From Arthrobacter sp. V1I7 (GTDB lineage: Bacteria; Actinomycetota; Actinomycetes; Actinomycetales; Micrococcaceae): a DNA stretch of 64,000 nucleotides. Below, in pieces: positions 10,727-31,358 of this stretch. The stretch lies in NCBI RefSeq assembly GCF_030817015.1, contig NZ_JAUSYS010000001.1, positions 868,001-932,000 of the forward strand, written 5' to 3'. The notes beneath the pieces were generated by a model, which was given only the letters and a program-made list of their open reading frames with translations, was not told where the DNA came from and made no database searches. Made by a program: the position numbers and the translations under genes. The first letter of the stretch is position 1; every line of letters starts with the position of its first letter.

Positions 10727-12500
10727 TTACTGCTCGAGCTGGGTCGGGGCCTCTTCCGCCGGCAATGTCATGGTGAATGTTGTGCCGGAACCGGGTGTGC
10801 TGACGCAGGAGATGTCTCCACCGTGCCTCTCGACGATGGACTGCGTGATGGAAAGGCCCAGGCCGACGCCGGGGATGGCTGACTGCCTGGCTGCGCGGGT
10901 GCGGAAGAACCGCGTGAAGATCCGGGTGGCTTCCTCTTCGCTGATGCCCATCCCGGTGTCCTGCACCTTGAGCTGGACCCACGAGGCGTCGCTGGCGGGC
11001 GCTGACGGTCACGGAACCACCCGCGGGCGAATACTTGATGGCGTTTGACACCAGGTTGTCGAGGGCCTGGCCGATGCGGAGTGGGTCCGCGTGCGCCCAG
11101 AGAGGCACCGGAACGTCGGTGCTGAGGGAGACGTTGGTGGCGTCGGCCTGGGCCTGGGCGGATCCGATGCTGGTCTCGACCAGTCCGGAGAGGTCAGTCC
11201 GGCGCGGATGGACGGCCAGGACTGTTGACGCGGATACGAGCAAATCGGAGACGAGCGACAGCAGCCTCTCGGCGTTGCGCTGGACCACCTCCAGCCTCCG
11301 GACGGCCACCGGCGAGTAGCCTTCCACCTCGCTCAGCACCAGGTCCACGTTGCCGAGGACTGACATCAGGGGACTCCGGAATTCGTGGGAGACGTTGGAG
11401 ATCAGGTCTTCCTTGGCGGCCAAAGCCTCTACGAGGCCTGTGACGTCGCTGGAGACGATGACGGCCCTGCTGAAGCCGCCGTCGTCGTTCTTGATGATCC
11501 GTGCTGCTGTTGAGATGGCGCGCTGGTTCGGACCCTCGCCAGTCCAGACGAGATAGTCCGCGAAGGTTTCCCCCGCCACCGCCCGGTGAATCGGCCGCTT
11601 GTCCTCGGGAAGGGGCGTCACCCGGTCCTGGCCGAACATGAGCTGCCGCGACTCCTCGGCCGCCGTACCCGAGGCGGTAGGGGAGGCGGCCTGCTGGAAT
11701 ATTGCCTGCTGCCCATTGACCAGGATGGTCCGGCCGTCTGCGTCGACGGCGACAATCCCGACGTCGATCGTGTCCAGAACGGTCTTGAGCAAGCGTTCGC
11801 GCTTCCTGCTTTCAACCAGCAGTTCGCGCAGTTCTTCGTCCTTCTTCTCCAGCCGCTGGCGTTGAACCCGGACGTTGGCACTGGCGAAACGGATGGCCAG
11901 CGAGATGGTGAGCATCATTAGCGGCAGCAGAACTGCGCTGGTGATGTCGGAGGGTGAAATGTTGGGAAATTTTTGGAGTACCGACGGCAGCGTGACCAAA
12001 AGGGTGCAGAAAAAGCTCAGGAAGACCGTGGTGCGGGCAAAAGCGGTGGAGGTGGACAGCCAGATCACGGGGAATATGGCCAGAACTCCGAGGCCGGCAA
12101 CCGCCGGAACGGCGCCGTTGCGTGCGAGGCCAATGACCACGAAATCGAGAATCGGAATCACGAGGAAGGCATTTGCCGGCAGCCGTTCCCACGGAACTAG
12201 GAAGCAGGCAATAAATAGGCCCGCCATGAGGACAATGGACGCAATGAATGTGCCGTTTTGTATCAGGGTAGGCCAGACCGCGGGCGCCGCCACGGCCAAC
12301 GCCGCGAGAAGGACCGTTACCGGAAGCTGGCAAAACGCGACCTGGACGCGGGGTTTTAGTCGTCGGAAAAAACGGTCCGTGTCGCGGACCAGCAGCTGCT
12401 CACCCAATGTTGTACCGGCCGGAACGGGTGCAGGGGCCGGGGCCGGGGGAGGCGCCGGGCCGGGTGCAGGTGCGGAGGCCAGTGCGGGGGTAGCGGCCAC
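10727..12500 (-). pseudogene. membrane sensor histidine kinase, frameshifted near its end
   Basis: A two-component sensor. From a GTG at 12500 (start uncertain) the order is a Pro/Ala-rich N-terminus, about five membrane segments (residues 55-205), a coiled-coil linker, a PAS-like domain (235-355), an H-box with H372 (NVSHEFRSPL) and an N-box (DNLVSNAIKYSP, about 481-492). The frame then breaks at GGG 10997-10999, where one G too many is the simplest reading. The ATPase end (VQDTGMGISEEE, GVGLGLSITQSIVERHGG) continues in another frame to the stop at 10727. As written it lacks a usable catalytic domain. Upstream it meets a run of 38 G. It could be a genuine pseudogene or a sequence error. Confidence 0.8.
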
Positions 12501-15158: not shown

Positions 15159-15979
15159 TCAGGCGGTTTCTGCCCTGACGGTGTTGGTGATGCTGCCGAC
15201 TCCTTCCACGGTCACGGTGATGGTGTCGCTGTCTTTGAGGAACAGTTGGGGGTCTCGGCGGTATCCGACTCCGGATGGTGTGCCGGTGAGGATGACGTCC
15301 CCTGGCTCCAGCGTGGTGAATTCGGTGATGGTGGCGATGAGTGTGGGGATGCTGAAGATCAGGTGGGAAAGGTCAGATTTTTGTACAACTTCCCCGTTCA
15401 GGGTTGTGCTGATGCCTGCCTTGCTGATGTCGGCTTCTGTCCGGGTGACGATGTAGGGGCCGACCGGGGTGGTGTTGTCCCAGACCTTGCCCTGCAACCA
15501 TTGGTGGGATCTGTTTTGGTAGTCGCGCATGGTGACGTCGTTGGAGACGCAATAGCCTAGGACGTGGTCCATGGCGTCCTGCTCGGCGATGCGGCGGCCT
15601 GTCCTGCCGATGATGACGGCAAGTTCGCCCTCGAAGTCGACCTGGGTGGATTCCGGGGGCAGGATGATGTCGTCGGCTGGTCCGATGAGCGTGGATGTGT
15701 ACTTGGGGAAGAGGACGGGAAAGCGGCCGTGCTGGCGTCGTCGGCATGGTCTTTGTAGTTCAGGCCCACGCAGAGGATCTTCCCGGCCCTTGGTGACGCC
15801 GCTCGGAGGGTGACTTCGGATAGGGCAACCCGTGATTCCGTCAGACGGGCAGCACTGGCAAGGAGATCTGCGGATGTTTCCGGTCCGACGTCGGTGAGCC
15901 CGGCCAGCGGGATGAGGTGTTCGCCGTGAACTTCGCCGATGAAGTTGTGACCCTTGTATCGGTAGTTTGCGTAGGCCAT
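15159..15979 (-). pseudogene. fumarylacetoacetate hydrolase family protein, frameshifted
   Basis: The FAH family includes hydrolases and decarboxylases of keto acids, among them oxaloacetate decarboxylases. Frame one gives MAYANYRYKGHNFIG and ILCVGLNYKDHADDAS. Frame two resumes with FPVLFPKYTSTLIGPAD, FEGELAVIIG with its metal-ligand Glu, YCVSNDVTMRDYQ and LTGTPSGVGY. One missing base at about 15720-15731 explains the break; total length is one short of a multiple of three. Intact, the protein would be about 273 residues. It is the last gene of the tartrate operon, where an oxaloacetate-handling role would make sense (inference). Confidence 0.8.
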
Positions 15980-23390: not shown

Positions 23391-24275
23391 CTATTGGCCA
23401 CTGAAGGTGTTGATGGCGTTGATGACGGCCGGGCCCAGGATGGCGATGAAGAGCACCGGGAAGATGAAGAACAGCAACGGGAACAAGATGGTGACCGGCA
23501 GCTTCATGGCCTTTTCCTCGGCCCGCTGCCGGCGCTTGACGCGCATGACTTTCGCCTGGATCCGGAGCACCCGGCTGATCGCGATCCCGTAGGTGTCCGC
23601 CTGCACCACCGCCTGAACGAAGCGGCGCAGCTCCGGGATGTTGGTCCGCTCGGACAGCGAAAGGTACGACTCGCGTCGGCTTCTGCCTACCTGCATGTCC
23701 TGCAGTGTCCTGACGAGCTCCTCGGCGAGGGGTCCCTTGCCGTTTTCTCCGGCCCGTGCCATCGCGCCTTCGAAACCCAGGCCTGCCTCCACCGAGATGA
23801 GCATCTGGTCCAGGGTGTTTGCCAATTCAAGCTGGATGGTTTTTTGGCGTTCCTGGCCCTTGCTGTAGAGCAGGAGGTCCGGGATGAAGTAGCCCAGGAG
23901 CAGTACAAAGATCCCCACAGGCTTGAGCATCGACGTTGGCGAACTGGCGCTGATGTAGAAACCCAGCAAGGCGTCGGTCAGGCCCAGAAGCGGCTTGGCC
24001 GCCAGCACCCGCCCGAGCGGCAGCGAAACCGGCCGTCCGGCAAGGGACAGCAGTTTGTCGAGTTTCCGGACGTAGCCGGCAGGCGTCAGCCGGTAGCCGA
24101 CCTGCGCCAGGACGTTGCTGCGTTTCCGTTCCGGGAGCCCGGCAGCGTCCGCGCCGAGCGTGAGTATCCCCCGGATGGCCCGTTGCGATTTCCGGTCAAC
24201 GGAGAGCAGGGTCCAGACGAGATAGCCGAGTGGCAGGCAGACCAGCAGGAGGGCGAGAAATATCCGAGGATCCAT
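23391..24275 (-). CDS. tadC: Tad/type II secretion system F family protein TadC
   Basis: Inner-membrane platform protein of Flp pilus machines. The 294-residue protein has N-terminal and C-terminal membrane segments and the family core ANTLDQMLISVEAGLGFEGA, RSRRESYLSLSERTNIPELR and FVQAVVQADTYGIAISRVLR. Last gene of the minus-strand Tad locus, eight bases after tadB. It appears intact. The 240 bases downstream of it to the GntR-type gene show nothing I can identify. Confidence 0.9.
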   Translation of the reverse strand: MDPRIFLALLLVCLPLGYLVWTLLSVDRKSQRAIRGILTLGADAAGLPERKRSNVLAQVGYRLTPAGYVRKLDKLLSLAGRPVSLPLGRVLAAKPLLGLTDALLGFYISASSPTSMLKPVGIFVLLLGYFIPDLLLYSKGQERQKTIQLELANTLDQMLISVEAGLGFEGAMARAGENGKGPLAEELVRTLQDMQVGRSRRESYLSLSERTNIPELRRFVQAVVQADTYGIAISRVLRIQAKVMRVKRRQRAEEKAMKLPVTILFPLLFFIFPVLFIAILGPAVINAINTFSGQ

Positions 24276-24282
24276 CCCGGCC

Positions 24283-25217
24283 TCAGAACTTCAGGTCAAT
24301 GATCTTGCGCATCCACAGACCGCCGATGGTCATCAGAATGACGGACGCCACGATCATGGTCCAGCCCAGCGGGTTCGTGAACATAACGTCCATGTAGCCA
24401 GGGTTAACCAGCATCAGCATTGCCACGATGCCGATCAGCATGGCCATCAGGATGTAGGCCGAAAACTTTCCTTCGGCGGCGAGGGACTTGATGTGCCCCT
24501 TGATCTCGCTGCGCTCTCGGATGGTCTCGTTGACCTGGTCCAGCACCTCAGCCAGGTTGCCGCCCACCTCCCGGTTTATCTGGATGGCCTGGGCTATCCA
24601 GATGAAGTCCTCGTTTGCATCCGGTCCGCCGTGTCGTTGAGGGAGGACAGGAGATCCCGCCCCAGGCTGGTTTCCGTGACTACCCGCCGCATCTCTTCCG
24701 ACGTCGGGCTTTGAGATTCGGTAGCCGCCGCGTCAATGGCGCGCAGGATACTGTGCCAGGCCCGCAGGCCCCCAGCCAGCACTTGGAGGGTGTCCCCGAG
24801 CTGCTCATCGAACTTCGCCCGCCGCTTGCCGGCCAGGAAACCGAAACCGACCACGAGGTGCCCCACGAGTGGCGCCAGCGGGACGAAGAGGACCGCCAGC
24901 AGGGGACCGGCGACAACCAGGCCCGCCAGCGCCCCGACGAGGGCTCCGGCCCCAAGCAGCACGAAGAAGTCGGCCTGGCTCAGACGAAGTCCCGCGTTTT
25001 CGAGGGATTCCCGGTTGAACAGCCGGACCTTCCGCTGCGAAAAGTACCCGTCGGCCAGATGCACCGCAGAACCGGCAAAGCGGGTCAGCTGGGAATCGGG
25101 CTGGTTCTGGGCGGGGCGCCGACGGTCCAGCGGCACGTTGGACCCGGGGGAGAGCACCACGATCCCCAGCAACAGCACGGCGGCAAAGAGCAGTCCGATC
25201 CCGATAGGCAGCGTCAC
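24283..25217 (-). pseudogene. tadB: Tad platform protein TadB, frameshifted
   Basis: Second membrane platform protein of the Flp pilus assembly. The first part (from ATG 25217) has membrane segments and AGGLRAWHSILRAIDAAATE and ETSLGRDLLSSLNDTADRM. Then the frame stops early at a TAG. The rest (GGNLAEVLDQVNETIRERSE and two closing membrane segments) lies in another frame to 24283. One base missing in the T tract 24614-24616 restores an unbroken NDTADRMQNEDFIWIAQA reading. Intact length would be about 311 residues. Without repair the protein lacks its last third. Confidence 0.85.
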
Positions 25218-25224
25218 GGGCGGC

Positions 25225-26751
25225 TTACACCCGTCCGGCCTGGGTCAGCGGGGCAGCGAAGACGCCGGGAGATACGTGGATGCCCAGGTCCACGAAACGG
25301 TCAATGAAACGTGGGCGGATGCCCGTGGGGACCGGCTTGCCCAGGAACCGGCCATGGGCGTCGACGCCGGCGGCGTAGTCGAAGACGAAGGCATCCTGCA
25401 GCGTGACGATGTCCCCCTCCATCCCCTGGACCTCGGTGACGTGGGTGATCCGGCGGGTGCCATCGCGGAGACGGGAGATCTGGACGATCAGGTTGACGGC
25501 CGAGGCGATCTGCTCCCGGATGGCGCGGAGCGGCAGATCCATGCCGGCCATCAGCACCAGGGTCTCGAGGCGAGCGACGGCCTCCCGGGGCGAGTTCGAG
25601 TGGACGGTTGAGAGGGAGCCGTCGTGGCCGGTGTTCATGGCCTGGAGCATGTCCAGAGACTCGCCGCCGCGGACCTCGCCCACCACGATCCGGTCCGGCC
25701 GCATACGCAGGGAATTCCTCAGCAGCTCGCGGATGGTCACTTCGCCCTTGCCCTCGGTGTTCGGCGGACGGCTTTCGAGCCGGACCACATGGCGCTGCTG
25801 GATCTGGAGTTCGACGGCGTCCTCGATCGTCACGATGCGCTCGTCAGCCGGAAGGAAGGACGAGAGCACGTTCAGCAAAGTCGTCTCGCCGGTGCCGGTG
25901 CCGCCCGATACGATGATGTTCAGCTTCGCTTTCACGCAGGCGTTCAGGAGTTCGGCCATTTCCGGTGTCAGCGTCCCGAACTCGATGAGGTTCCGGACCG
26001 TCAGCGGCACTTTGCTGAACTTGCGGATCGTCAGCGATGACCCTCCGACGGCGAGCGGCGGAATGACGGCGTTGACGCGCGACCCGTCCTCGAGCCGGGC
26101 ATCAACCAGCGGCGAGGACTCGTCGATCCGGCGGCCCACCTTGGAGACAATCCGCTCAATCACCTTGCGCAGGTGGTCTTCTGAGCTGAAGCGGGATTCG
26201 GTCAGGGTCAGCTTGCCGTGCCGCTCGACGTAGATCTGGTCCATCCGGTTGACCATGATTTCGGTGACGGCAGAATCGTCAAGGAGCCTTTGCAAGGGCC
26301 CGTAGCCGAGCACGTCATCCGCGACGTCCTGGACCAAACGTGTCCGTTCCTCGGCCGAGAGCGGGACCTGCTCGGCGTCGATGATCCGAATGAGTTCCTC
26401 CCGTGCGGAGGTACGCAGTTCGTCCTCCTTGACAGCGGAATCGTTGAACCGGGTCCCCATCCGCTCGAACAGGGCAGTCGCGGCGCGCTGCTTGAGGGCC
26501 GCGAAGACATCGACCGGCTGCGGACCCTTTGAACGGAAGTTATCTGCCGACTCAGCGAATCCTGCAGGAACCGCGGGCTGGGGCAGACGCTCGACGATGG
26601 AGGCTGGCTTCCGGGGTGCGACCGCGGCGGCCGTGACCGCTGTCGTGGGCTGAGCGCGTGGGGGAGACTGCGCCGGCGGTGCCGGGGCAGTGGGCGGGGC
26701 CACCGATGGCTGGGTGCCCTCGGCGCTCCTGAGCCGTTCGGAGAGTTTCAA
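25225..26751 (-). CDS. cpaF: Tad secretion ATPase CpaF/TadA with Walker A Lys replaced by Glu
   Basis: The hexameric ATPase that powers Flp pilus assembly. The 508-residue protein has a Pro/Ala-rich start, then ADDVLGYGPLQRLLDDSAVTE, VNAVIPPLAVGGSSLTIRKF, the Asp box IVTIEDAVELQ, Walker B RPDRIVVGEVRGGE and the His box GHDGSLSTVHSNSP. The Walker A reads GGTGTGETTLLN: codon 289 (25887-25885) is GAG where all functional relatives need Lys (AAG). ATP hydrolysis should be abolished. The start is TTG 26751, directly after the cpaE stop. Otherwise full length and in frame. Confidence 0.93.
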   Translation of the reverse strand: MKLSERLRSAEGTQPSVAPPTAPAPPAQSPPRAQPTTAVTAAAVAPRKPASIVERLPQPAVPAGFAESADNFRSKGPQPVDVFAALKQRAATALFERMGTRFNDSAVKEDELRTSAREELIRIIDAEQVPLSAEERTRLVQDVADDVLGYGPLQRLLDDSAVTEIMVNRMDQIYVERHGKLTLTESRFSSEDHLRKVIERIVSKVGRRIDESSPLVDARLEDGSRVNAVIPPLAVGGSSLTIRKFSKVPLTVRNLIEFGTLTPEMAELLNACVKAKLNIIVSGGTGTGETTLLNVLSSFLPADERIVTIEDAVELQIQQRHVVRLESRPPNTEGKGEVTIRELLRNSLRMRPDRIVVGEVRGGESLDMLQAMNTGHDGSLSTVHSNSPREAVARLETLVLMAGMDLPLRAIREQIASAVNLIVQISRLRDGTRRITHVTEVQGMEGDIVTLQDAFVFDYAAGVDAHGRFLGKPVPTGIRPRFIDRFVDLGIHVSPGVFAAPLTQAGRV

Positions 26752-27941
26752 CTAGACCACCACCCGCCGGTGCAGCTTCTTCTGCGTCGTGGCCCGCCAG
26801 GCTGGATCGAACCGTGCCACCAGCTGACCGAGTCCCTTGACGGCAGGGTCCTTGCGGCCACTCTGCAACACCGGGACGCCGCGGTTAGTCGAAAACGCCA
26901 CGGCTTTGGAGCGGGGATGCTGACATCCACGGGAGCTCCGATGGTGGCCTCCACGTCCTGCACGCTAAGACCTGACTTGGAATCGACTATGTTCAGGACC
27001 ACATGGCGTGTCTCCGGCAGCAAGTCCAGCCGGCGAAGGATCTGGAGCCCGGAGCGGAGCCCCCGGATGCTCGGGACGTCCATGGCCGTGACCCAGACGA
27101 CATCCGTGCACTGTTCCATGGCTGCCAGGCCCACCTCCGGCAGTCCCGGGGCGGTGTCCACGACGACGTACTGGAATTGCTCTGCGAGTTGCTCCAGGAG
27201 GCGGGACACTTGTTGCGGGGTGATGTCATCGGCTTCCTCCGGACTCCGCGGCGCACAGAGCGCGTAGATGTTGCTGGGGTGGACTGCCAGGAACGCCTTG
27301 AGGACCAGGGAGTCGTGGCTGGCCGTGGCGGAGACCGCATCGGTGACGGTGTGCTCGGGGTTCAAGTAGAGTCCGGAGGCCACATCGCCGAACTGCAGGT
27401 CGAGATCCACGATGACGACGCCCATCGGGGCCACCTTTCCCAGCCCGATGGCGATGTTGGTGGCGATGGTGGTCTTACCGACGCCACCTTTGGGGGAGAA
27501 GACTCCGATCACCAGGCCTTTGGGAGTCTCGGACTGTTGGACGGCTGTGCTTCGGCTCCGGCTGATGAACGACTGGCAGGCGCGCTCGAGCAGCACGCGG
27601 ATCTGCGCCGGATCAGAGTCGGGGCTGAGGATGTCCCGGATGCCGGCGCGCATGGCCAGCACAACAAAGGCCGGGTCAGGTTCACCGACGAGGACGACGC
27701 TGAGTTCCGGAAGCTGCACGTCGAAGACCGTGGCGAGCCGGAGTGCATCTTCCACTGGCACGTCAGGGCCCAAGATGAGCACCTCGGGCCGCTCCTGGTC
27801 CAGATTTGCGAACAGTTCACCGGGATCGGCCGGATTGACGAAGGCGAACGTCTGCAGTCCGCCGGGAAGTCCTCCGGCGAGGGCCTGGCGCACCCGCGCG
27901 TCGAAGTGGGTATTGGGTGTAATCAGTACGAAGCGGCTCAC
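26752..27941 (-). pseudogene. cpaE: CpaE-like Tad ATPase/receiver protein, frameshifted near the C-terminus
   Basis: Localises the Tad machine in related systems. Order: N-terminal receiver-like domain (MSRFVLITPNTHFDAR, LVGEPDPAFVVLAMRAG), then a MinD/ParA-type ATPase with FSPKGGVGKTTIATNIAIG, VIVDLDLQFGDVA and VVDTAPGLPE. After VDVSIP the frame is lost. One C missing in the G tract 26913-26916 (plus strand) restores a plausible end (RSKAVAFSTNRGVPVLQ through to KKLHRRVVV) with TAG at 26754-26752, touching the cpaF start. The GTG start at 27941 overlaps the corrected cpaB stop. Only the last 59 or so residues are affected. Confidence 0.85.
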
Positions 27942-28713
27942 TTGTAGACCTCCGGTTTCGTGATGATTCCTGGGCGGCCGCTGTCTGTTGCATGAGCGGC
28001 TCCTTGCTCAGCCAGATGCTGGCGGTTTCCGTAAATTCCGAGGCATAGACGATCTTGCCGGCGTCGACGTCGTTCACCGCAACGGTCAGCAATAGGGATC
28101 CGGTAGGCAGCGTCGTGTCTTCAGCAGGTGCAGTACTGCCGTCCGTCGCGGGCTGCGTGGGCGTAGTGACTACGGGGGCGCGCTGCACTGCGGTCACCAG
28201 GACCTTGTGGATGGTCAACTGGGTCGTCTCTTTTTCCGGCTTGGCTTCAAGCCCGCCGTTCTTCAGGGAAATGAAGATTCCCACATGGTCACCTGGTACC
28301 AGCCGGCCACCGACGACCCGCTGCGGTTCCAGCTGGAAGGAGACCTCCTGCAGACCCTCCGGGACCTGCACGGAGCCGCTGGCCCGGAGCTCCTCCGGCG
28401 CTATCAGCCGCTCAGCGACGAGCTGTTCACCCGGGAGCAGGTCGACGGCGGTTACCTTCCCGGTAAGACCATCGAAGTTCTTCAGCGCCGATTTTGTGAC
28501 CGCCTTGCCGGGAAGTTCCTCGCTGGCCACGAAGGCTTTGAGGGCGGCTACTGTAGTGCCGGCGGGAACAGCCTGCTTGACCACGAGAACCGAGACCGGC
28601 TCCAGGTTCTGCACGGCCCGGGTGTCGGCTCCTTGCGCGTAGCTGACCACAAGGATGGCTCCGACGATGGCGAGCACTACGGCCGCCAATCCTGCCAATA
28701 AGCGTGACTTCAA
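27938..28713 (-). pseudogene. cpaB: CpaB/RcpC-like Flp pilus assembly protein, frameshifted near its end
   Basis: CpaB proteins are periplasmic or extracytoplasmic Tad components with SAF domains. Seen: one N-terminal membrane anchor (SRLLAGLAAVVLAIVGAILV), the SAF region VLVVKQAVPAGTTVAALKAF, and FQLEPQRVVGGRLVPGDHVG. After EPLMQQTAAAQ the frame is lost. One base missing at CC 27969-27970 restores IITKPEVYK and a TGA at 27940-27938 that overlaps the cpaE GTG start, as expected in a tight operon. Intact length is about 258 residues. The lesion affects only the last dozen residues, so function might survive. Confidence 0.82.
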
Positions 28714-28746
28714 AGACTGCTCCTGAACTGCTGGGTCGAAAACGTG

Positions 28747-29787
28747 CTACTGGATGAGCCGGACGATAGTTGCCCCACTGGCGTCCACGCGGCCGAGAGT
28801 GAATCCGTCCGCCAGGGAGACATACTCGATGAAGCTGCCGATGATCCCCCTGCAGCTTCCATCGCAGGCCACCGAGGAAGAAACGTAGGCTGTGCTGTTC
28901 CGGAATGTTTTGGGGAGGTCGTCGTTACCGCTGAACTTCCAGCCGGCCACCTTGAATGATGCAAAGTACTTCAACCCGTAGACGGCGCCCGATCCGGTGC
29001 CGCTCACGTCGTCGAAGACCGGCAACAGCACGACAACGTCCTTGCCGGCCGTGATGTCGCTGGCCCAACGCTGCAGGATCGCCAAGCAGATGTCCGGCGC
29101 CCCGCTGTTGCCCGGGTCGCTTCCGCCCTCGGCGACGTCGAGGTCTATCAATCCGCCACAAACGCCCGGATCACTGGTCAGCCAGCCAAAGCCACCTGAA
29201 ACCGGGGCGCCGGATGGACTGTAGAAGCAGTCCGGGTTGGCGTTGCTGCCGTGGTTCTGAAGCAGCTGCAGCGTCCCGTCGACGTGGTTCTGGACCTGGC
29301 AGATCGAGAAAGTGACGGGAAACGCCGTAGGACCCGCCAGCGGGCTGCCCCACTGGACCGTTGAGGCGGCAGTGACTTCGGTGGTGTTGATGCCGAGAGC
29401 GCGGGCGAAGAACAATGAAACATGGTTGGGTTCCTTGCCGGCTTCCTGGGCTCCGGCAGCGACGGTAACGGTGTGGGTGGCCGTGTCCAGGGTCAACGAC
29501 TGGACATTGCTGAGCCGGTCCCCGGCGTTGCTGCTGGCGAGGCTTCGTGCAAGCGCTGAGATGGCCGAGCATTCGGGGTCGTTGGCGTCTTTGGCGCATT
29601 TCTGCGCCACGGCCAGGGCCGCGGCGTCCGACCCGTTGCGAAGCTGGGTCCGCTCGGAGTAGAGCATGCCGACGTCGATCGCGAGGGCAGTGAATCCCAG
29701 CAAGGCAACCATAATGATGGCGACGATGACGCTGATGCCGCCGCGCTCGCCGTCCTCGCGACAAGGTTTCTTCCTCAACCGCCGCAC
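28747..29787 (-). CDS. TadG-like pilus-associated protein
   Basis: A 346-residue protein with one N-terminal membrane segment in the prepilin-like context ERGGISVIVAIIMVALLGFT, then SERTQLRNGSDAAALAVAQ, typical of TadG/DUF2134-type N-termini. The long extracytoplasmic part contains six or more cysteines and Gly/Ser/Asp-rich loops. Start GTG 29787, overlapping the tadE stop, is preferred over an ATG further upstream that would read into tadE. It is probably a minor pilin or surface component. Confidence 0.75.
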   Translation of the reverse strand: MRRLRKKPCREDGERGGISVIVAIIMVALLGFTALAIDVGMLYSERTQLRNGSDAAALAVAQKCAKDANDPECSAISALARSLASSNAGDRLSNVQSLTLDTATHTVTVAAGAQEAGKEPNHVSLFFARALGINTTEVTAASTVQWGSPLAGPTAFPVTFSICQVQNHVDGTLQLLQNHGSNANPDCFYSPSGAPVSGGFGWLTSDPGVCGGLIDLDVAEGGSDPGNSGAPDICLAILQRWASDITAGKDVVVLLPVFDDVSGTGSGAVYGLKYFASFKVAGWKFSGNDDLPKTFRNSTAYVSSSVACDGSCRGIIGSFIEYVSLADGFTLGRVDASGATIVRLIQ

Positions 29788-30149
29788 AGCATCACACCCC
29801 TGCCTTCCATCGCGAACGGCGCAGCAATGCCGGTCATGGTTGAAAACGAATAGGTGATCGTAAGTGAGACCTGCGCGCCGGGGGTACATGTCGAAGGAGT
29901 CACAGCGATGTTGGCGTCCGTCAACGCCGGCTGCAGCCCCGTGGCAGCGTTTCTGACTGCGGTGCGGGCGGCCGTTGGCGTGTTATTGATGGCCATGACG
30001 CGGACGCCCTCGCGGGCGGCGCTGGAGAGCGTGATCTGGGTGTTGTAGGCCCGGCCGAACTCCATAATTCCCAGCAGCAGCAGTACCAGGACGGGGGCAA
30101 GAAGAGCGAACTCCACCGCGACGGCGCCCCGTTCGGATGTTTTGGACAA
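29775..30149 (-). CDS. tadE: TadE-like pseudopilin
   Basis: A 124-residue minor pseudopilin. SERGAVAVEFALLAPVLVLL is the cleavage and membrane motif, and LGIMEFGRAYNTQITLSSAA follows as in TadE. The start is TTG 30149, behind AGGAAGG, which places the membrane helix at residues 10-30. A longer frame would extend into sequence without resemblance to the family. The stop overlaps the start of the TadG-like gene. Confidence 0.82.
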   Translation of the reverse strand: MSKTSERGAVAVEFALLAPVLVLLLLGIMEFGRAYNTQITLSSAAREGVRVMAINNTPTAARTAVRNAATGLQPALTDANIAVTPSTCTPGAQVSLTITYSFSTMTGIAAPFAMEGRGVMLCGG

Positions 30150-30252
30150 GGGGCCGCCTTCCTGAATGTGCCAGTTGCAAGAAACGAATGTGTGGTGGCG
30201 GCTCAGGGCCGCCACCACACGCTCGAGGTCCAAAAAGGTCGGGCCAAGCCGA

Positions 30253-30495
30253 TTACGTGCACTTAGCCGGAACTGCGGCAGTGCTGGCCGTGGCCGCAGT
30301 GCCTGCGACGAAGGCGCCGCCGCTGATCGAGCACTTCGCTTTCGTGAAGGTGTCGGCCAAGGTCCCGCCCAGTAGCGTGACGGCGACGATGATCACGACG
30401 GCGATGAGCGACACCATGATGCCGTATTCGACGGCGGTGGCGCCGCGCTGATCGCGGCGAAGACGGGTTGCGAGGTTGGCGAAAAAGGAACGCAT
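30253..30495 (-). CDS. flp: Flp family type IVb pilin
   Basis: The major pilin: 80 residues, a short basic leader, then DQRGATAVEYGIMVSLIAVV, the Flp prepilin cleavage site (after Gly) and hydrophobic stalk, followed by LGGTLADTFTKAKC and a short Ala/Thr-rich tail. ATG 30495 has AGGAGT eight bases upstream. It stands at the head of the pilus locus, between the prepilin peptidase and tadE. The 196 bases upstream probably carry its promoter, but I see no convincing boxes. Confidence 0.9.
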   Translation of the reverse strand: MRSFFANLATRLRRDQRGATAVEYGIMVSLIAVVIIVAVTLLGGTLADTFTKAKCSISGGAFVAGTAATASTAAVPAKCT

Positions 30496-30691
30496 GGGGA
30501 CTCCTGAGCGAGTTGGGGGCTGGCCCTGCACCAGCACTGAGAGCAACTTAGCAAGCACCGACACGCTCAATATTGGACGTGGGTGCATCCTGTGCTAAGT
30601 CTTCCCAAACTGCACTCTTTCTGTGCGTTCCCTGCGCAGATCCTGCATTGGAGCTGCAAATTCCCGGGCCTGCACTGGAGCCCACTGGGAG

Positions 30692-31358
30692 TCAGGGCAT
30701 CAAGAGGATGACCGTCAGGGCGGCGCAAAGCATGGACGGGCCGTGAGCGACTTCCCGTGGCTTGTTTCCGCGGTTTCTCAGCATAAGGACGAGGGAATAC
30801 CAGGCCACCCGCAACGAAGCCCAGGGCGCCGCCGTAGAACAGCTGAGACCAGCCTTGGTAGCCCAGGTACAGTCCGAGTGGTGCTGCGAGCTTGACGTCG
30901 CCCATTCCGAGGCCGTTTCGGCTGGCCAGAGCAAGAATCAGGTAACCCGCGAACAAAATTACGGCGCCACCGACGCCACGCACCAGGTTTTCTGCTTCGC
31001 CGGCTGCTCCTGCTGCGAGCGTCAGCAGTAGCAGCCCGGCGCCCAGCAGGGGGAGTACTAGCCGGTTCGGAAGCAAGTGGTGAAGGACGTCGATCCGCGC
31101 CAGCTGGACCCCGGCGATAGCGAGCAGCAAATAGGCCGGCAGCTCAGCTGCCGCGCCGAAGCGCCATGCGAGCAAAGCGGACAGCCCGAAGGTGACGGCC
31201 GCCGTCGTGATCCTGGCTATCGTGGATGGTGTAGCCGCCAGATGGGGCAGCAGGCGCCGGATGAGTAATTCGGCCAGCAGCCCGAGGAGCAGCCCGAGAG
31301 CACCGATCGCCGTCATAAAGAACGGGAGAGCGGAGCCTGTTGCGGCGGGGTCGGACAC
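30692..31358 (-). pseudogene. A24-family prepilin peptidase, frameshifted
   Basis: Membrane aspartyl protease that cuts Flp prepilins. Seen: several membrane segments, the first catalytic Asp in LARIDVLHHLLPNRL and the second in NGLGMGDVKLAAPLG. After FVAGGLV the frame is lost. One A too many at 30796-30797 (plus strand) explains it: without it SLVLMLRNRGNKPREVAHG and the stop at 30692 follow, and the length becomes exactly 222 codons. The start is GTG 31358 behind GGAGGAACC. The lesion lies after both active-site Asp residues but before the last helix. Confidence 0.82.

Follow-up and report, generated by a model that had tools for sequence, protein, structure and literature searches.

Frame breaks and a Walker A substitution in the Tad pilus operon of Arthrobacter sp. 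V1I7: consensus errors are at least as likely as pilus loss

Background

In the solved CpaF motor ATPase of Caulobacter (9e24; PMC12019362, PMC11300603), lysine K287 coordinates the gamma-phosphate and the K287A mutant is without ATPase activity, as described in the part of PMC12019362 on which we draw. On gene-fragmenting indel errors in long-read assemblies, the consulted portion of the Kastor paper (PMC12007338) gives 83 frameshifted genes for one draft before correction.

The Tad locus of the soil bacterium Arthrobacter sp. V1I7, for which a literature search found no published account, has the same gene set and gene order as the Tad/Flp operons of Arthrobacter and other actinobacteria, but differs from them by four frame breaks and by a Lys to Glu change (K289E) in CpaF. 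An initial annotation had reported lesions in five of the nine Tad genes and had taken them to suggest a pilus locus losing function. All five lesions are present in the sequence, as judged from tblastn, a codon-frame hidden Markov model (HMM) and alignments, with GAG at 25887-25885 for the substitution. In this study we compare these lesions with the frame breaks found elsewhere in the V1I7 genome and with the corresponding loci of its relatives.

Results

A standard Tad operon carrying lesions

The V1I7 genome (5.03 Mb in 2 contigs, with a completeness rating of 100%) belongs to Arthrobacter in the wide sense, and the nearest named matches of its CpaF are Arthrobacter proteins. Within the window, that is, the whole 64-kb stretch of DNA analysed, a nine-gene operon occupies 23391-31358 on the minus strand in the order pppA, flp, tadE, tadE/G, cpaB, cpaE, cpaF, tadB, tadC (Table 1), with the Tad families for the Flp/Fap pilin, T2SSE ATPase, CpaE/TadZ, CpaB/RcpC, TadE/G-like protein and A24 peptidase all present. 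The operon adjoins rplM and rpsI, a placing shared with the relative G046, and the DNA identity of the Tad core to its nearest relatives is 83-84%. The locus is a standard Arthrobacter Tad (type IVc) pilus operon, and it reads as a Tad locus with lesions, not as a member of another family. No nonsense codon, IS element or large deletion was seen inside the operon, and the window had no Rfam match at gathering thresholds.

Table 1. Features of the Tad operon and of two unrelated broken genes in the window
Feature	Positions	Strand	State	Basis
Histidine kinase gene	10727..12320	-	one frame break near 10980, inside HATPase domain	HMM, Pfam
FAA-hydrolase gene	15159..15979	-	one frame break near 15734	HMM, Pfam
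tadC (T2SSF)	23391..24275	-	open	Pfam PF00482, E 2.6e-17; aligned in 25/25 relatives
tadB	24283..25217	-	one frame break near 24614-24617, within T2SSF domain	homology, codon HMM, alignment
cpaF/tadA motor ATPase, 508 aa	25225..26751	-	open; Walker A K289E	PF00437 (T2SSE), E 1.7e-67; PDB CpaF match
cpaF codon 289	25885..25887	-	GAG (Glu); Lys in relatives	sequence, alignment
cpaE/tadZ	26752..27941	-	one frame break 26913-26916, at run of four C; last ~52 residues out of frame	homology, HMM, alignment, Pfam
cpaB/rcpC	27938..28713	-	one frame break between 27967 and 27994, past RcpC domain	homology, HMM, alignment, Pfam
TadE/G-like protein	28747..29787	-	open	PF13400, E 1.4e-13
TadE	29775..30149	-	open	PF07811, E 5.2e-18
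flp pilin	30253..30495	-		PF04964, E 4e-15
pppA, prepilin peptidase (A24)	30692..31358	-	one frame break near 30797-30800, end of peptidase domain	homology, HMM, alignment, Pfam

The flp gene of the operon was the single Flp_Fap match in a genome-wide profile search at E 0.001, and with no other such match in V1I7 we rejected the loss of a redundant pilus copy as an explanation. Further Tad-like ATPase clusters lie near 592 kb and near 1168 kb, neither with an HMM call, and the genome has a second A24 peptidase gene, which is open. Of the 35 same-genus genomes that have this Tad type, 30 carry a second Tad locus no more than 15 kb away, and four have one at another place or on a different contig. 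Across most of the genus this second, tandem locus sits between the first locus and pppA/rplM (in G046, for example, at L115:3653-10006); unlike most of the genus, V1I7 lacks it at this locus, as does G018. G213, the nearest lineage in the flank tree, has a Tad locus without a break call; a second Tad locus was not seen there in the stretches read, which are separated by a gap of about 3 kb.

Frame breaks in tadB, cpaE, cpaB and pppA

Breaks were called with a codon-frame HMM that was trained on the V1I7 genome, uses no annotation and is blind to homology. It placed calls in the Tad genes at 24616, 26915, 27967 and 30814 and elsewhere in the window at 10980 and 15734, with zero calls in the remaining 44 kb at the standard penalty. 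The same six were returned at shift penalties of 16 and 20, and penalties of 10-14 added one or two (858, 18451); at a penalty of 25 the calls at 10980, 15734 and 27967 were left, and at 30 those at 10980 and 27967. Since three of the four Tad calls are lost at 25, the Tad breaks rest on homology as well. With G046 ORFs as queries, tblastn switches frame in tadB (24615/24609), cpaE (26892-26916) and pppA (30753-30796), and the cpaB match ends at residue 237 of 255. In an alignment with nine relatives the four breaks fall at 24614-24617, 26913-26916, ~27993 and ~30797-30800. The positions first proposed agree with these for tadB, cpaE and pppA, but for cpaB the alignment puts the break some 24 bases upstream of the proposed 27969-27970. 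The pieces of tadB, cpaE and pppA match consecutive parts of one relative's gene, in keeping with the earlier view that the genes were intact until very recently.

The tadB break cuts the T2SSF domain in the middle, with pieces matching profile positions 2-55 and 65-124, and a conserved C-terminal segment of some 52 residues is lost from cpaE. The other two breaks lie near C-terminal ends and may have a mild effect: that in cpaB follows the RcpC domain, at residue 237 of the 255 of the G046 protein, and that in pppA leaves a match that still reaches position 101 of the 104 of the A24 domain. Among the six breaks that could be localised, from which the histidine kinase break is left out as only one relative aligned there, one (cpaE, four C) is in a run of at least four identical bases and five are outside runs. 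Homopolymer slippage, which fits only this one of the six, was rejected as a general cause.

No HMM call fell in a Tad gene in the stretches of 28 relatives that cover the locus, G203 being set apart for its poor assembly; such calls as those stretches had lay on the opposite strand, or in adjacent genes whose products we read as a response regulator or an Hpt-type protein. The G203 locus (L187) has 10 frame-break calls in 12 kb, and its assembly looks poor. A generally bad assembly of that kind was rejected for V1I7, which is far cleaner.

The Walker A substitution in CpaF

The V1I7 CpaF aligns with Caulobacter CpaF 9e24 over residues 9-490 (E 1.3e-135), and its codon 289 falls on K287. The two proteins are alike along their length, but V1I7 has Glu at the position of the lysine for which the portion of PMC12019362 used here describes the alanine mutant. 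Lys stands at this position in 25 of 25 aligned relatives, and the Walker A Lys is found in 120 of the 120 homologues listed. A scan with a looser Walker A motif, which also fits other P-loops, gave 133 loci, 124 of them with Lys and only two with Glu, both being the same V1I7 gene. The catalytic Walker A Lys of the motor is not present in V1I7 CpaF, and by analogy with K287A the change should disable the motor. Taken at face value, the lesions together would mean, as read from the sequence, that no Flp pilus could be made. The initial annotation held that the substitution cannot be an indel error, which is true, but a substitution error may have produced it.

Breaks in unrelated genes of V1I7 and its relatives

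Both unrelated broken genes of the window are within 13 kb of the Tad operon, and in each the pieces flanking the break read as one protein. Four relatives have matches to the FAA-hydrolase gene at 90-93% identity, and in all four it is open. The V1I7 gene sits in a block (~13.3-23.4 kb) without a match at the same place in G046, which also holds an HpcH/HpaI aldolase, an isocitrate/isopropylmalate-type dehydrogenase, a 2-hydroxyacid dehydrogenase, an SDF symporter, MR_MLE and GntR.

Outside the window we sampled 61 stretches of V1I7 (1.22 Mb, about a quarter of the genome, with 994 kb coding; two overlap by 5 kb), which gave 47 HMM calls (13, 0, 20 and 14 in four batches), 11 of them one-sided, that is, with 5 residues or fewer on one side. 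The calls were sorted into ordinary genes, mobile elements and end artefacts by reading the translations, and many proved to be transposases or mobile genes by this reading. Twenty-four two-sided candidates were named, and 18 of these were put to Pfam (L243:995 as one piece only). For eight genes both pieces fall in a single Pfam family at consecutive positions, with junctions at 459/462 (RND), 43/46 (ndk), 154/157 (SDR, a gene seemingly broken twice), 188/201 (PTS EIIC), 101/103 (PRiA4), 119/127 (GH32), 172/181 (ABC exporter) and 66/70 (MFS); two further genes, a second ABC exporter and a glycosyltransferase, have adjoining domains across the break. The two ABC exporter genes are adjacent (L281:9386-12824), with one frame break each. 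The ndk gene (L130:14308-14758) has an open frame of 120 aa in V1I7 and of at least 146 aa in all 39 other genomes with a match, among 40 searched; in five rows of this comparison the match contains a single stop, which is probably where the gene itself ends. By this strict count at least 10 ordinary genes are cut in the 994 kb that are coding; a further eight or so breaks are plausible. A gene like a mobile-element NTPase (L134:17222-18825), with four frame calls and several stops, is apparently a true old pseudogene.

In the relatives, 59 stretches with 899 kb coding gave 15 HMM calls, 11 of them one-sided. Three of the other four were put to Pfam, one with one piece only, and one or two of the four look real: one joined different genes, rpsE is open by tblastn, one has no family, and a formate-tetrahydrofolate ligase (G018) looks true. 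Eleven evenly stepped stretches of G046 and G044 gave three calls, all one-sided. The rate of lone breaks in V1I7 exceeds that of the relatives several-fold, an excess that may partly reflect gene content, as the relatives' stretches are mostly conserved neighbourhoods.

Density of breaks around the operon

The Tad operon has 4 breaks in 7.55 kb of coding sequence, where 0.076 are expected at the strict rate (10 per 994 kb) and 0.36 at the raw rate (all 47 calls). The strict rate gives a ~50-fold excess (P 1.3e-6, or 7e-4 with a correction for how many such loci there are), and the raw rate gives P 5e-4, or 0.29 corrected. Next to the operon, 9.8 kb of coding sequence between 10.7 and 23.1 kb of the window hold 2 breaks where 0.10 are expected (P 0.005, and 0.08 at the raw rate). 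As the neighbours are dense in breaks too, it is the whole 20 kb stretch that is dense, not the operon alone.

Selection on the Tad genes

Substitutions in Tad pieces (2490 codons) and in eleven flanking genes (4259 codons) were compared with 19 relatives; G203 was left out for its bad assembly, as were columns in which fewer than 13 genomes were represented. Per-branch omega covers the terminals of V1I7 (G000), G046, G142 and G205, which are four of the 12 Tad and four of the 10 flank terminals. For V1I7 it is 0.080 on the Tad branch against a background of 0.099 (2dlnL 6.3) and 0.059 on the flank branch against 0.073; the Tad omega of G046, 0.159, is above that of V1I7.

At columns invariant in 25 relatives V1I7 has 18 unique changes, compared with 0-12 in close relatives and 18 and 30 in two outgroups. 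Taken alone, without the flank control, this count would suggest relaxation. When controlled by the flank, the unusual changes of V1I7 number 31 in 2490 Tad columns and 26 in 4259 flank columns (means in the 19 others, 11.7 and 12.5), giving a Tad/flank rate ratio of 2.0 in V1I7 against 1.6 in the others. Pilus-specific relaxed selection was therefore rejected: omega is not raised, and the excess of unusual changes is not specific to Tad. The Tad operon has been under purifying selection up to about the present, and given the lack of Tad-specific relaxation any inactivation would be confined to a short final portion of the branch, by our estimate a few per cent. An omega below background is also expected after a very recent loss.

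Discussion

The most likely explanation, to which we give about an even chance, is that the V1I7 lesions are residual consensus errors, locally dense over some 20 kb (10.9-30.8 kb) with others scattered through the genome. A real loss of the pilus is no more likely than this, and part of the lesions may be real. If consensus quality fell locally, this would break the operon and its unrelated neighbours alike, and residual errors would leave a genome-wide scatter of lone breaks without relaxed selection in the Tad genes. In favour of this reading, the same kind of break occurs in unrelated neighbours and in ordinary genes above the relatives' rate, the Tad omega is below background, the indels are mostly free of runs, and the operon was not seen to hold a nonsense codon, IS element or large deletion. 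The likeness to the long-read indel errors in the part of the Kastor paper (PMC12007338) consulted here is in the scattered single-frame breaks in ordinary genes, which at the strict rate extrapolate to about 44 in V1I7, and the difference is that its localised breaks lie mostly outside homopolymers. Counting against errors are the ~50-fold density of breaks in the operon at the strict rate and K289E, for which a substitution error at the catalytic codon would be needed. If about 9% of coding sequence is essential, the lack of a break in any gene judged essential by name (P ~0.1) also counts, weakly, against errors.

Spontaneous 1-bp indels fall mostly in runs, and the most frequent nanopore errors are not those outside runs, so five of six localised breaks outside runs are a poor fit both to slippage mutation and to the commonest nanopore error. 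This also weighs on the view, which we hold as possible but somewhat short of an even chance, that a real and very recent inactivation struck the only Flp pilus, by further hits following a first or under selection against piliation, in a genome shedding dispensable genes. The clustering of breaks in one operon speaks for it, as do the 18 changes at invariant columns and a locus that is unbroken in 28 relatives, G213 included. K289E, moreover, strikes the residue whose Ala mutant lacks ATPase activity in Caulobacter, as far as the portion of PMC12019362 drawn on here describes it. In the sampled stretches transposases, several of them broken, are frequent as read from the translations, and both adjacent ABC exporter halves are broken, as in operon decay. 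Against it, the unrelated neighbours are broken too, so that the damage is not confined to the pilus unit, omega is not raised, the excess of unusual changes is shared with the flank (2.0 vs 1.6), and a simultaneous wave of hits elsewhere in the genome is needed. Read as real, then, the lesions would describe a pilus strongly selected until very recently and struck by at least five hits, the ATP site of its motor included, within a genome-wide burst of single-gene inactivations, a sequence of events to which we give the same chance, somewhat short of even. A mixed culture, in which the consensus blends intact and mutant cells, or a mutator lineage scattering hits would account for breaks in scattered ordinary genes, but omega is raised in neither the Tad genes nor the flank, and we think this improbable. 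The cpaE break at its run of four C could be taken to point to programmed frameshifting or reversible phase variation in the operon; the other three Tad breaks, however, do not fall in runs of at least four, and 28 relatives are without a break in their Tad genes, which makes this the least probable of these explanations, with very little in its favour.

The initial annotation is supported in part, including the Lys to Glu change at CpaF codon 289, and the comparison it proposed with the Tad loci of relatives gave no break call in 28 and Lys kept in 25 of 25. Damage peculiar to the pilus locus is not supported, given two unrelated neighbours and at least 10 ordinary genes broken alike and no relaxed selection; with breaks genome-wide and a Tad omega below background, a pilus locus losing function is not established.

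Conclusions

Should consensus errors be the cause, the lesson of V1I7 is that several lesions in one operon prove no decay until the background of lone breaks in the same genome has been measured. If the lesions are real, the loss of a surface organelle would be dated to the last small part of the lineage's history and the locus would hold a natural P-loop mutant of CpaF, with the loss of the pilus caught in its first moments, ahead of any trace of relaxed selection.
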